Assembly (NCBI GenBank): GCA_947498705.1
Contig: CANMLW010000012.1
Span: forward strand, 1 to 64,000
Source: an uncultured Aquimarina sp.
Lineage (GTDB): Bacteria > Bacteroidota > Bacteroidia > Flavobacteriales > Flavobacteriaceae
Direction of reading: 5' to 3'
DNA: 64,000 nt
A model generated the notes under the pieces. It ran no database searches. It was not told where the DNA came from and saw nothing but the letters and a program-made list of their open reading frames with translations. The translations under genes and the position numbers were made by a program. This document shows, in pieces, positions 19,648 through 24,667 of this stretch; position 1 is the stretch's first letter; every line of letters starts with the position of its first letter.

Positions 19648-20133
19648 TTAAACCAAATACACCAGTTGATTTTCATGATTTTTCATAGTCGCAATACTAG
19701 TTACCTCTATTGCACTTTCTACTTTATTTTTCAATACAACCAACACCTCTTCTTCAGTGTATTTGGTAATGGCCTTAAAAAGCATTCTTCCTATGTTATT
19801 ATTATGTAAATCCATAGCATTTTCTATAGGAGCATTAGGTGCAATTTTTTCATATAAATCGGTAATCGTTTTTGCCCATTTTATCGCTTTTTCTTTATTT
19901 TTTGTGCGTATAAAAACCTGATAACACAATAGCATATTCCACAATGCATGTCGATATGCATTGGCGACCCCGTTACCATGGTGTTCCTTGCCATAATTTT
20001 TATTACAAATAAGCATGGTGCGTTGTGTTGCACGAAGTGTTGGTAAAATACATATAGGATTAAGGAACATGACCCAGGATAAACGACCTATTTGTTGGTA
20101 ACTTAATCCTATGATCACCCTGTATAGATTCAT
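19648..20133 (-). CDS. DUF6973-like protein downstream of hemE
   Basis: 161 residues, soluble or weakly membrane-associated. Two conserved blocks stand out: HHGNGVANAYRHALWNMLL (about 51-69) and NAMDLHNNNIGR (about 105-116). The His/Arg/His and Asp-His-Asn-Asn pattern looks like an active site and fits the uncharacterised DUF6973 group. No function is established to my knowledge. Its start is separated from the hemE stop by a single base, so it is almost certainly translated from the heme operon mRNA. That position gives only a weak hint of a heme-related role. Confidence 0.7.
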   Translation of the reverse strand: MNLYRVIIGLSYQQIGRLSWVMFLNPICILPTLRATQRTMLICNKNYGKEHHGNGVANAYRHALWNMLLCYQVFIRTKNKEKAIKWAKTITDLYEKIAPNAPIENAMDLHNNNIGRMLFKAITKYTEEEVLVVLKNKVESAIEVTSIATMKNHENQLVYLV

Positions 20134-20134
20134 A

Positions 20135-21166
20135 CTATCCCTGATACTCTTTTACTGCGTCTACAAAAGCTCTAGCATTTTCTACCGGAATGTTTGGTAA
20201 AATACCATGTCCTAAATTAGCTACATATCGATCCTTACCAAACTCATCAATCATCTGTTTTACCATTTTTTTAATCTCGGCAGGGGGTGATAACAACCTT
20301 GATGGATCAAAATTACCTTGCAACGTAATATTTCCTCCGCTTAGGTAACGTGCATTACGTGCAGAACAAGTCCAATCAACTCCTAATGCTGCAGCTCCCG
20401 ATTTTGCCATTTCCTGTAGTGCAAACCAGCACCCTTTTCCAAAAACGATTACCTGAGTTTCGTCTTTTAATGCATCTACTATTTGCTGAATATATTTCCA
20501 TGAGAACTCTTGATAATCTACAGGAGAAAGCATTCCTCCCCAACTATCAAATACCTGTACAGCATTTACACCCGTAGCCACTTTTGCTTTTAAGTAGGCA
20601 ATAGTGGTATCTGTAATCTTTTGTAGTAATTGATGTGCAGCTTCTGGTTGTGTAAAGCACAGTTCTTTGGCTTTATCAAAATTTTTAGACCCTTGTCCCT
20701 GCACAGCATAACATAAAATGGTCCAAGGCGATCCTGCAAAACCAATAAGAGGAACACGATTATCCAAACGTTCTTTGGTTAGTTTGATCGCATCCATCAC
20801 ATATCCTAATTCTTCATAAACATCGGGTACAACTACTTGTTCAACATCTTTAAGAGATCGAATAGGGTTGGGCAACCAGGGGCCAATTCCGTCCTTCATT
20901 TCGACTTCGATATTCATTGCCTGCGGAATCACCAAAATATCGCTAAACAAAATCGCAGCATCCGGCCCAATGATATCTATAGGTTGTACTGTAATTTCTG
21001 ATGCTAGTTCTGGAGTCCTACATCTTGTAAAGAAATCATACTTTTCTTTTAACGCCATAAACTCTGGCAAGTATCTACCTGCCTGACGCATCATCCAAAC
21101 TGGAGGTCGCTCCACAGTTTCTCCCTTTAAAGCCTTTAAGAATAAGTCGTTTTTAAGTTGTGTCAT
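20135..21166 (-). CDS. hemE: Uroporphyrinogen decarboxylase
   Basis: 343 residues, full length. The N-terminal signature [15 protein letters not shown] (about 22-36) contains the conserved arginines for the substrate carboxylates. D72 lies in the [17 protein letters not shown] segment, and [20 protein letters not shown] and GNFDPSRLL are further family blocks. The enzyme removes four acetate carboxyl groups from uroporphyrinogen III to give coproporphyrinogen III. It follows hemD (75-bp gap) in the hemA-C-D-E order. No terminator is seen in that gap, so cotranscription is likely. Confidence 0.96.
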
Positions 21167-21241
21167 ATAATTACAGCCCTATCGGGTCTTTTATTAAGGG
21201 TAGTGTCATGAAGTTTTTATGCACCTGTCAACATCTACCTT

Positions 21242-22324
21242 TTATTTTTTAAAATATTTTATAGCCTGTATAATAACATTTTCTACAGTAGGTTTGTTCG
21301 CTACTCGAACGGTATCTGTATAATTAATCGCTTCTGAAGCGGTGGTATTACCTATACAGAAAGTAATACTGTCTCCAATTCTATTTTTTGCAACATAGCT
21401 TTGTATACCAGACGGGCTAAAAAACAAAATCCCATCAAAAACACGATCAAATATACGCGAGTTCATATGAGTATTATATACTATTTGTTCTTTTAATTTT
21501 ACACTGTGTTGTTTCAAAATATCGGGTAATTCGTTTCTTCTTAAGTTTCCACAAAAAAATTGAAACGAAGTGTTTTTATAGTTTTCTACAATAATTTTGG
21601 CCAAATCAGAAGCATTTTGAGCAGTTTCTATCACATTTTGCCCATGATCTACTAATAGCTTTTTAGTATTGTCTCCTACACAATAACAGTTTTTAATATT
21701 CAATTGTGATGTCGTATTTAAAACTGCTTTTACAGCATTCTTGCTCGTAAAAATTGCATGGCGCACCTCATCATTCATTTCAACTTCAAGCAATTCAATC
21801 TTTATAGCATCATATTCTACAAAACCAAGGCCACTATTCAATATCAGTTCCTTTTGCGCAACTGATAATTTTTTGGTAGATAATATGGTATAACCTTCTT
21901 CTTTATTATCCTCATTATCCTTAATAAGATGTTTCTTTGCAATTCCCTCACCCCGACCCTCTCCCTGAGGTAGAGGGAGAAATTCTTCAACACTCTTTTT
22001 TATACTTTGCAAAATCAGTTTATGATTATCAAAAACTACATCATTTTTAAATCTTAGTACTTTATATCCCAAAGTTTCCAAATGCAAATCTCTTAATTGA
22101 TCTTTTTCTTTCTGGATATCACTATTATGATATTTTCCGTCAAGCTCAATAACGATTTGGTATTCAATATTTATAAAATCAACAACATACTCTTTTATTG
22201 GATGTTGTCTCCTAAATTTCAAATTATCAAAATTTCTATTACGAAGAAGTTTCCACAATGCTGCCTCAGCTGTTGTTGGCTCTTTTTGAAGTAATCTTGA
22301 TATTTGAGTTTTTTTATTCATCAA
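21242..22324 (-). CDS. hemD: DUF559 nuclease-like domain fused to uroporphyrinogen-III synthase
   Basis: 360 residues in one frame. Residues about 1-115 are a DUF559 domain (PD-(D/E)XK, Vsr-like fold: E20 in TTAEAALW, FRRQHPIKEYVVDF, VIELDGKYH). Residues 116-127 read LPLPQGEGRGEG, the translation of a GC-rich repeat. From about residue 145 the protein is a normal flavobacterial HemD (ILSTKKLSVAQKELILNSGLG..., FTSKNAVKAVLN, YNT, FFSPSGIQSY, IGNTTA, PTVENVI) of ~215 residues, the family's full length. I find no in-frame ATG, GTG or TTG between the repeat and the HemD core, so HemD may now be made only as this fusion. It closes the linear tetrapyrrole to uroporphyrinogen III and sits between hemC and hemE. 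Confidence 0.88.
   Translation of the reverse strand: MMNKKTQISRLLQKEPTTAEAALWKLLRNRNFDNLKFRRQHPIKEYVVDFINIEYQIVIELDGKYHNSDIQKEKDQLRDLHLETLGYKVLRFKNDVVFDNHKLILQSIKKSVEEFLPLPQGEGRGEGIAKKHLIKDNEDNKEEGYTILSTKKLSVAQKELILNSGLGFVEYDAIKIELLEVEMNDEVRHAIFTSKNAVKAVLNTTSQLNIKNCYCVGDNTKKLLVDHGQNVIETAQNASDLAKIIVENYKNTSFQFFCGNLRRNELPDILKQHSVKLKEQIVYNTHMNSRIFDRVFDGILFFSPSGIQSYVAKNRIGDSITFCIGNTTASEAINYTDTVRVANKPTVENVIIQAIKYFKK
21945..21978. repeat. Inverted GC-rich repeat, left end of DUF559 insert
   Basis: Begins CCCTCACCCCGACCCTCTCC and forms a small hairpin (CCCTCT / AGAGGG). It is the inverted partner of 22332-22364: 19 of the first 21 positions match its reverse complement. It is translated in frame inside the hemD fusion. 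Confidence 0.85.
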
Positions 22325-22331
22325 TCACAAT

Positions 22332-22364
22332 TCCCTCTCCTTTGGGAGAGGGTTAGGGTGAGGG
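22332..22364. repeat. Inverted GC-rich repeat, right end of DUF559 insert
   Basis: TCCCTCTCC-TTTG-GGAGAGGG hairpin followed by TTAGGGTGAGGG. It lies between the hemC stop (22374) and the fusion start (22324), mirroring the repeat at 21945-21978. Repeats of this type commonly flank DUF559 genes in diverse bacteria. Confidence 0.85.
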
Positions 22365-22373
22365 TATTTAAGT

Positions 22374-23285
22374 TTATTTTATCGCTGCTTTTATCCTCTT
22401 CATAAGTGCTTTCCCACCATTATTTAATACTTCTTGTGCACAGTTTTTACCAAAATCTTCTTTTTCTGAAATCTTAACTGTTTTTGTCACCGATATCATA
22501 TCTTTTCCATCCAAACCATGCAATACTCCTGTAAAATGAATTTGATCGGCATCTATTTTCGCCAATGCTCCAATAGGTGCAGTACAACCTCCTTCTAACT
22601 CTCTTAAAAACTCACGTTCTATATGAACGCAAATTTGTGAGGCCTCATCATTAAGACTTGCCAAAGCCTCTCTACAAAAAGTATCTTCTTCTTTTGCAAC
22701 AACCAGCATAGCACCTTGAGCAGGAGCTGGAATCATCCAATCTAAATCAATATAATTCTCTGGCTTTAGGTTAATTCGTTCTAAACCTGCAGCTGCAAAT
22801 ATAGCACCTTGCCAATCATTATCGGTTAGCTTTTGCATTCTTGTGTTTACATTACCGCGTAAATCTACAACTGTATGCGATGGATATTTATGTAACCACT
22901 GAGCTTTTCTACGTAAACTTCCTGTAGCGATCACTCCCTCTGTCTCTAAAAAATCTAATCCCTTATGTACTAAAATATCTTTAACATCTGCTCTTTTCAA
23001 AACCGCAGCCTCCACAATTCCACTTGGTAAAGCCGTGGGTACATCTTTCATAGAGTGAACCGCAATATCTATATCGCCATTTAACATGGCAATATCGAGT
23101 GTTTTCGTAAAAATGCCGGTTATTCCTAATTCGTATAGAGGTTTATCGAGAACAAGATCTCCTGTAGATTTTACAGGGACCAAATTCGTGTCGTATCCTA
23201 AATCATTTAATTGTTTTTGTACAGTATTGGCCTGCCAAAGTGCTAATTCACTATCTCTGGTACCTATACGAATTGTCTTTGTCAA
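22374..23285 (-). CDS. hemC: Hydroxymethylbilane synthase (porphobilinogen deaminase)
   Basis: 303 residues. The N-terminal IGTRDSELALWQA, the catalytic aspartate D81 in HSMKDVP, the arginine-rich GSLRRKAQW and DLRGNVNTR, and the cofactor cysteine C234 in EGGCTAPIGA (attachment point of the dipyrromethane) are all present. It polymerises four porphobilinogens into hydroxymethylbilane in the cytoplasm. It overlaps nothing but is only 2 bp from hemA upstream. Downstream, the DUF559 insert separates it from the hemD core. Confidence 0.96.
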   Translation of the reverse strand: MTKTIRIGTRDSELALWQANTVQKQLNDLGYDTNLVPVKSTGDLVLDKPLYELGITGIFTKTLDIAMLNGDIDIAVHSMKDVPTALPSGIVEAAVLKRADVKDILVHKGLDFLETEGVIATGSLRRKAQWLHKYPSHTVVDLRGNVNTRMQKLTDNDWQGAIFAAAGLERINLKPENYIDLDWMIPAPAQGAMLVVAKEEDTFCREALASLNDEASQICVHIEREFLRELEGGCTAPIGALAKIDADQIHFTGVLHGLDGKDMISVTKTVKISEKEDFGKNCAQEVLNNGGKALMKRIKAAIK

Positions 23286-23287
23286 TG

Positions 23288-24538
23288 TTACTTATTTTGT
23301 AATTGAAAAACTTTCTGAATTAATTCTAAACTCTCATTTGCCGAAGTAGTATCATCTTTAAGATGATTGGCAAAATGATTGGTAATTTTCTGAATGATAC
23401 GACTACTTATAATATCGGCCTGTTCCTCATCAAAATCTGCATACTTTTTTCGTTGTAAGTTAATCTCCATATCCTTCATAGTAATTAACTTATTCTTAAG
23501 CGCTTTGATTGTTGGAGCAAATTTTCTTGTCTCAAGCCAATCATTAAATTCAGTTTTTACTTCTTCTATGATTGCTTCGGCCTGTGGTACATACTGCTTT
23601 CTTTTCTGTAAAGTATCATCTGTCATTTTGGACAAGTGATCCAAATGAACCAATGTTACATTAGGCAATTCTGTAACGTTTGTTGCTACATTTTTAGGAA
23701 TCGACAGATCCAAAATTAGCAAAGGTTTGTCAGAATGGATTAATTGTTTAGAAATAGTAGGATTCTGGGCACCTGTAGCGACAATCAAAATGTCTGTATT
23801 CTTAATTTCAGATTGAATATTAGCATACTCCTTTACCACAAGATTAAACTTACCGGCCACCTTTTCTGCTTTATCTTTGGTACGATTAATTAAAGTAATA
23901 TGATCATTTTTGGTATGCTTAATTAAATTTTCGCAAGTATTACGACCTATTTTTCCTGTACCAAAAAGTAATATATTCTTATCAGAGATATTTTCTACGT
24001 TCTTAAGAATATATTGTACCGATGCAAATGACACCGAAGTGGCACCAGAAGATATTTCGGTTTCATTTTTGATTCGCTTACTTGCCTGGATTACAGCATT
24101 GATCAATCGTTCTAGAAAAGGGTTTGTTATTCCTACCTTTTTTGACGTTTTAAAACTCAGTTTTAATTGACTAATAATCTCAAAATCTCCTAGTATTTGA
24201 CTATCCAATCCCGTACCCACTTTAAACAGATGGGCTACGGCTTTACTGTTTTTATGAACGTAGGCAACCTTTTCAAACTCTTCTACAGTACCATGTGTGT
24301 GTTCACATAACAACTTGATTAACTGAAATGGGTGTTGGGCAAAACCATGCAACTCTGTTCTGTTACAAGTTGATGTAACCAATAACGCTTCTATACCTTC
24401 AGTTTTTGCCTGTTGCAATATGCTTTCTTTGGCATGATCACTAACACTAAAGCGTCCTCTAATCTCTGCGTCAGCTTTTTTATAGCTAAGTCCTATGGTA
24501 TAAAAATTTGTTCCTTTCGCTCTTAAATGGGGCTCCAT
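23288..24538 (-). CDS. hemA: Glutamyl-tRNA reductase
   Basis: 416 residues. The N-terminal catalytic domain holds the nucleophile C58 in TSTCNRTELHG. The next block is GTGLDSQILGDFEIISQLK, and the NADPH-binding domain has LLFGTGKIGRNTCENL. The C-terminal dimerisation helices follow. It makes glutamate-1-semialdehyde from glutamyl-tRNA, the committed step of C5-pathway heme synthesis. It is the promoter-proximal gene of hemA-C-D-E, with a TATTTTTG -7 box about 27 bp before the start. It is transcribed divergently from an AraC-type regulator, a likely control point. Confidence 0.96.
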   Translation of the reverse strand: MEPHLRAKGTNFYTIGLSYKKADAEIRGRFSVSDHAKESILQQAKTEGIEALLVTSTCNRTELHGFAQHPFQLIKLLCEHTHGTVEEFEKVAYVHKNSKAVAHLFKVGTGLDSQILGDFEIISQLKLSFKTSKKVGITNPFLERLINAVIQASKRIKNETEISSGATSVSFASVQYILKNVENISDKNILLFGTGKIGRNTCENLIKHTKNDHITLINRTKDKAEKVAGKFNLVVKEYANIQSEIKNTDILIVATGAQNPTISKQLIHSDKPLLILDLSIPKNVATNVTELPNVTLVHLDHLSKMTDDTLQKRKQYVPQAEAIIEEVKTEFNDWLETRKFAPTIKALKNKLITMKDMEINLQRKKYADFDEEQADIISSRIIQKITNHFANHLKDDTTSANESLELIQKVFQLQNK

Positions 24539-24564
24539 GCAGTTATGATCTATTTTCCTTGGGA

Positions 24565-24572
24565 CAAAAATA
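24565..24572 (-). promoter_or_regulatory. -7 promoter box of the hem operon
   Basis: TATTTTTG on the minus strand, matching the Bacteroidota TAnnTTTG consensus, 27 bp before the hemA start. No convincing -33 TTG was found at the usual spacing. Confidence 0.45.
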
Positions 24573-24667
24573 TTTTAGATAGTTTTAAAAAAATAACGCT
24601 AGAAGAGTTTTTAGTATCGAAAAACGTTATTTGCGGCATTATTTTATCATAAATCCTTAAAAAGGGC

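Follow-up and report, generated by a model that had tools for sequence, protein, structure and literature searches.

The window, that is the whole 64,000-nt stretch of DNA from an uncultured Aquimarina sp. that was analysed, carries on its minus strand the gene order hemA, hemC, a 360-aa open reading frame (ORF) and hemE. Analysis of ORFs in the window revealed that 21242-22324 of the minus strand is one open frame (360 aa, 41.3 kDa) in which a DUF559 nuclease is followed by a translated palindrome and then by HemD. An earlier reading made from the sequence only, that the DUF559 frame runs through the left repeat into HemD without a stop, was borne out by this single ORF. The features of the locus, and a further gene elsewhere in the genome, are as follows.

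20135-21166, minus strand: hemE, the downstream neighbour (ORF list and Pfam)
21242-21892, minus strand: HemD (uroporphyrinogen-III synthase) core, complete (Pfam; ~70% identity to the unfused HemD of sister species)
21893-21940, minus strand: 48-nt linker, translated as IAKKHLIKDNEDNKEEG (comparison of HemD fusions)
21938-21982, minus strand: downstream palindrome, translated, with PLPQGEGRGEG at 21944-21976 (aa 117-127) (repeat, fold and translation)
21989-22315, minus strand: DUF559 nuclease domain, motif residues E, D..E-x-D..H intact (Pfam and motif)
22319-22324, minus strand: start codons of the fusion, TTG 22324 with ATG 22321 directly after (ORF analysis)
22330-22368, minus strand: upstream palindrome, consisting of the tail CCCTCACCCTAA and the hairpin CCCTCTCC-CAAA-GGAGAGGG (repeat and fold analysis)
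22374-23285, minus strand: hemC (porphobilinogen deaminase), the upstream neighbour (Pfam E 5e-69)
About 286530-287354 of contig C2 of the window genome, G000 (C2:286734; locus L240:331-1155): second HEM4 protein (Pfam)

The DUF559 domain (PF04480) occupies aa 4-112 of the fusion (E 1.3e-32, 112.4 bits against a gathering cut-off of 20.6) and HEM4 aa 180-350 (E 2.5e-24), with the HemD core beginning at aa 145; a single-sequence structure model of the fusion had a pLDDT of 35, too low to be of use. The two palindromes are the same tail-plus-hairpin motif, inverted to each other. Their 30-nt arms (21941-21970 and 22339-22368) are 83% complementary and spaced 368 nt apart; folding gave an 8-bp hairpin for the arm at 22330-22368 (z -4.2) and a weaker result for the other (z -1.25). 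A unit of ~420 bp bounded by repeats had been proposed, and while the bounding inverted repeats are there, comparison with empty sites gives a size of ~468 bp. The 48-nt linker is present as a single copy in the genome and in the window genome only, with little or nothing at its position in other HemD fusions. An intron or intein was ruled out: Pfam scans detected no Hint domain, no Rfam match was found within 20000-24600 and the frame is kept everywhere. HemD in the fusion has no N-extein. A tblastn search of phages returned two weak matches; one of them bears a 'hint domain' label, but the labelled feature is on the other strand and does not count as evidence.

The stretch from the repeat, translated at 21944-21976, to the HemD core, which starts at 21892, contains no in-frame ATG, GTG or TTG, as had been claimed; the final such codon upstream of HemD, TTG 22012, lies within the DUF559 domain. 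The best reading of these sequences is that the cell would make a single nuclease-HemD chain; alternatively HemD could start at TTG 22012 or at a non-standard codon. The related claim that an essential enzyme relies on the inserted start survived in part, in that HemD lacks any standard start codon downstream of the insert, but the word 'essential' is weakened by the second, distant HEM4 protein of the window genome (274 aa, Pfam E 1.7e-29). HemD is perhaps dispensable because of this protein, which may serve as its backup. Weak second HEM4 matches of similar length were found in nearly all Aquimarina genomes searched and the genus may possess two uroporphyrinogen-III synthase-like genes.

Comparison with 61 Aquimarina genomes showed the site to be clean, in agreement with the sequence-only reading. 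In element-free genomes the hemD start, mostly a TTG, usually comes 0-2 nt after the hemC stop. The distance from hemC stop to HemD core is ~10 nt at these empty sites, 479 nt in the window and 357-598 nt across the six carriers, and the insertion point is constant, falling in the same ~10-nt hemC-hemD interval with the native hemD start absent. Fusion carriers, as judged by ORF length, made up six of the 61 genomes; the remaining 55 lacked an ORF of fusion length and the junctions were read in ~25. Sister species are empty at the junction, and the sister pairs G043/G069 (support 99/90) and G000/G012 (84/91) differ in presence of the fusion. A target duplication, which it had been suggested might be defined by aligning hemC-hemD from relatives, was not visible when either the hemC-hemD or the MetH junctions were compared with empty sites. 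A single origin within Aquimarina requires 5-9 exact losses (median 8, 200 bootstrap trees), which random deletion would hardly yield; recombination with empty alleles could possibly do so. One genome (G003) has two small unrelated ORFs resembling a RelE/HigA-type toxin-antitoxin pair at its hemC-hemD junction (L039:2412-3140), so that insertions are either tolerated at this junction or drawn to it.

A search across 397 family genomes identified the same arrangement of DUF559 and HemD in at least nine genomes from other genera, the genera being counted from genome-set labels. It also revealed that HemD is one of several hosts. Among 57 fetched loci with DUF559 in a long open frame the hosts were LeuS (24), MetH (10), RecG (10), HemD (9), IleS (2) and HisD (2), identified by motif with Pfam confirmation for IleS, RecG and HisD; Aquimarina carriers exist for HemD, MetH, LeuS and IleS. 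In the wider Bacteroidota HsdR, type ISP and PurL-like proteins carry DUF559 in frame, and here too it lies between palindromes that are translated, e.g. as PLPLGEDLGEG. The insert in MetH occupies a variable linker (non-carriers have NPKAAEGNGSNG), and the sites in LeuS, IleS and RecG are presumably surface loops, judging from the known folds. MetH carries inserts at two sites and one MetH ORF (L128) has both DUF559 copies, the second of which is sister to the first copy of the same gene in the domain tree. Fixed sites recur in several genes. The domain sequences group by host gene, with eight label changes on the domain tree against a minimum of seven and a shuffled mean of 60.6. The HemD inserts form one clade (support 99/99) and free-standing DUF559 copies occupy separate branches. 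The idea of a domestication event must therefore be modified, as the fusion to hemD is real and its recurrence in other genera and other core genes rules out a single domestication as the whole story.

The E, D, E-x-D, H motif of the nuclease core is intact in the window copy and in most others. The dN/dS of the DUF559 part was ~0.1-0.2, a sign of purifying selection on the nuclease and similar to that of the HemD part, with silent sites near saturation. Decay in frame was also observed. The HemD fusion of G049 (L089) has lost the catalytic core and kept the frame into HemD, and in another copy (L179) the E of the motif has become K. Because its core has been lost, the nuclease is dispensable in the G049 HemD, and decay of this kind is the expected outcome where the host gene is needed and the nuclease is not. 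The MetH linker of G049 (L264) contains a short, palindrome-bounded stretch, APQHSTEQGARGAGK, the ends of which match the insert ends of relatives; from the sequence it looks like an in-frame scar that a DUF559 element left behind on losing its interior. When nine DUF559 domains were combined in a profile, it matched PDB entries 3hrl (E 5.5e-30) and 3r3p (E 1e-5, 73 positions), the latter a 'mobile intron protein' which we take to be I-Bth0305I, whereas a single DUF559 sequence matched 3r3p with an E of only 0.058. By profile its catalytic domain is homologous to that of I-Bth0305I, and DUF559 is read as having an EDxHD/Vsr-like fold. No extended DNA-binding region was found beside the nuclease, the unit consisting of ~107 aa and short linkers.

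At ≤3 mismatches the 21-nt repeat core GGGAGAGGGTTAGGGTGAGGG was counted 20 times in the 5.08-Mb genome and its reversed control not once. All 18 other loci examined lie outside ORFs of ≥120 aa and many genomic copies are arranged as hairpin-tail/tail-hairpin pairs. A search for other copies of the repeat-DUF559 unit, which had been recommended, gave a divided answer: the repeats are multicopy and no second unit was found in the window genome. Among the 61 Aquimarina genomes the palindrome was present in 13, namely all six with HemD fusions (5-28 copies each) and seven of the 55 others (Fisher p 3e-5, computed treating genomes as unrelated). One of those without a HemD fusion, G075, has 34 copies, and has either lost the source or has another driver of palindromes. 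Hairpins rich in C/G flank the inserts far above the local background, for example on both sides in nine of ten RecG loci and upstream in 20 of 26 LeuS loci, where 0-1% would be expected, and palindrome orientation varies among HemD copies. The IleS of G015 (L086), which also has a DUF559 insert, contains a 28-aa in-frame mini insert, SPPTPKGGDRNSVSKAFNITPPLGETEG, with no nuclease. Because its left 23 nt are identical to the left end of the MetH insert in the same genome, the mini insert favours ends that may move with or without the nuclease gene. Two LeuS loci (L145 and L146) have arrays of translated palindromes beside DUF559 (EGSNLNPEVPSG... repeats; two copies of VLSPTLSEGKGV), which may have been amplified locally. 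A further LeuS, that of G057 (L088), has a second extra stretch downstream, ending LPLGEDLGGD, which is probably another palindrome-derived insert.

Evidence on movement differs between hosts. The conflict between insert and host trees for LeuS was 191 lnL, compared with 31-133 for 12 equal-sized LeuS blocks, and because it exceeds all 12 host blocks the inserts have a history separate from that of LeuS. The conflict in RecG was borderline (18.7 lnL against host blocks of ≤15.1), and those in HemD (11.4 lnL; host blocks 5-22) and MetH (13.9 lnL) fell within the host-block range. AU p-values that lack calibration with host blocks should therefore not be used alone. We infer transfer of HemD inserts between lineages; simple horizontal movement of these inserts was not upheld by the tree test calibrated with host blocks, nor was that of MetH inserts. 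The high identity of the L151 and L152 inserts was rejected as a sign of transfer, as the flanking DNA is equally similar. Mobility of the element is nevertheless supported by the patchy exact sites, by the new-site copy in one MetH and by the LeuS tree conflict.

The best reading of these comparisons is of a Bacteroidota-wide set of elements which would sit in frame at fixed positions in core proteins and would use no splicing device. The explanation that we favour, and hold to be reasonably probable, is a compact selfish element, made up of a DUF559 nuclease gene and REP-like palindromes, that is non-splicing and homing-like and persists through the tolerance of the host protein. Such an element would have inserted exactly at the hemC/hemD junction, so that its nuclease frame crosses the downstream palindrome into hemD. 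The nuclease would cut element-free alleles and repair would copy the element in, with rare jumps to new sites. Splicing would not be needed where the host protein tolerates insertion, and deletion or frameshift would be selected against, since the host gene would break. The dispersed palindromes would either be relatives unable to move by themselves or mark where earlier insertions had occurred, and the palindromes in general may be recognition ends, insertion relics or a partner repeat family. Several observations count against homing. The ~107-aa domain is without the DNA-binding regions of I-Bth0305I and site specificity is thus unaccounted for, the HemD and MetH insert trees fit the host trees, no target duplication was seen, palindrome-rich G075 has no HemD fusion and the palindromes of HemD copies vary in orientation. 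That these units constitute a distinct class of mobile element, in which a minimal nuclease with REP-like ends homes among orthologous core-gene sites, stays in the host protein permanently as one of its domains and yields dispersed palindromes and scars, is put forward tentatively, as a proposal with somewhat less than an even chance of being right.

Three other explanations have to be weighed. The element might be transposon-like, with the palindromes as terminal repeats on which DUF559 acts in trans to move them, the intergenic pairs as miniature derivatives and the fixed sites reflecting survival in permissive loops and not homing. The tracking of HemD-fusion genomes by palindromes, the match of hairpin-tail/tail-hairpin pairs to the ends of some DUF559 units, the 23-nt left end shared by the G015 mini insert and MetH insert and the two copies in one MetH all fit such an origin. 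However, random transposition does not predict the strict grouping of domains by site, a target duplication is missing, G075 is rich in palindromes without a HemD fusion and we know of no transposase activity in DUF559, so that we consider this rather unlikely. It is unlikely, too, that an old DUF559-HemD fusion was inherited vertically from a family ancestor, had a use for the host, whether in defence, DNA repair or regulation, and underwent many losses. The single clade of HemD inserts (99/99), an insert tree consistent with the host tree and purifying selection on the nuclease would all be explained, but the distribution is patchy (6/61 in the genus and nine further loci among the 397 genomes of the family) and each of the 5-9 losses in Aquimarina must have restored hemC stop, 0-2 nt and hemD start, unless there was recombination with empty alleles. 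Moreover, the same domain is present in unrelated proteins, palindromes are still found at the element ends and G049 has dispensed with the nuclease core.

Chance read-through appears quite improbable. On this view an ordinary free-standing DUF559 gene arrived in front of hemD, and separate synthesis of HemD continues from a non-standard codon or a start within the frame. Bacteria can initiate at ATT or CTG, and both in-frame ATT codons upstream of the HemD core and TTG 22012 in frame within DUF559 would be available, but the frame across the junction is kept in 15 HemD loci and the mid-protein inserts in LeuS, MetH, IleS and RecG allow no other reading.

Homing nucleases are usually thought to require an intron, an intein or a free-standing gene to spare the host gene. 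Under the favoured explanation, that of a non-splicing, homing-like element, the same kind of nuclease seems to persist in frame in tRNA synthetases, MetH, RecG and HemD without splicing. If true, the inserts would show in nature where core enzymes permit insertion and could be a source of the in-frame palindromes of bacterial proteins; they would also suggest what DUF559 may do and how domain fusions can arise. There is also a warning for annotation, in that 'DUF559 fusions' may be mobile-element insertions and not functional fusions. A search of open-access papers on DUF559, on homing nucleases read in frame and on inserts in tRNA synthetases found no description of palindrome-bounded DUF559 elements lying in frame in core genes.

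EDxHD enzymes are one of six homing endonuclease families (PMC3943268) and a DUF559/EDxHD protein has been mentioned among the intein-containing genes of Thermosynechococcus (PMC9403480). The element resembles the EDxHD homing endonuclease I-Bth0305I (3r3p) in its catalytic domain, homologous by profile, and in its fixed sites in conserved genes. Unlike I-Bth0305I it has no intron or intein and is read in frame within the host protein, and it lacks the extended DNA-binding region and is bounded by palindromes. It has the same domain as free-standing DUF559 (3hrl, E 5.5e-30), and a free-standing DUF559 gene of 123 aa, without such a palindrome, also occurs in the window genome. Unlike a classical insertion sequence, it shows no visible target-site duplication. 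Rickettsia palindromic elements are likewise palindromic, lie in frame in metabolic genes and are translated (PMC10969869, PMC3733652); compared by description, those elements are short (~150 bp), whereas here a nuclease gene lies between palindromes that are read in frame within the host ORF. REP/BIME sequences with RAYT have a hairpin and unpaired tail, pairs in opposite orientation, intergenic copies and a repeat-flanked gene (PMC3733652). The palindromes described here share all of these features; they differ in that the tail is GGTGAGGG, not GTAG or CGTC, that the partner protein is DUF559 and not a tyrosine transposase, and that the units lie inside core genes.
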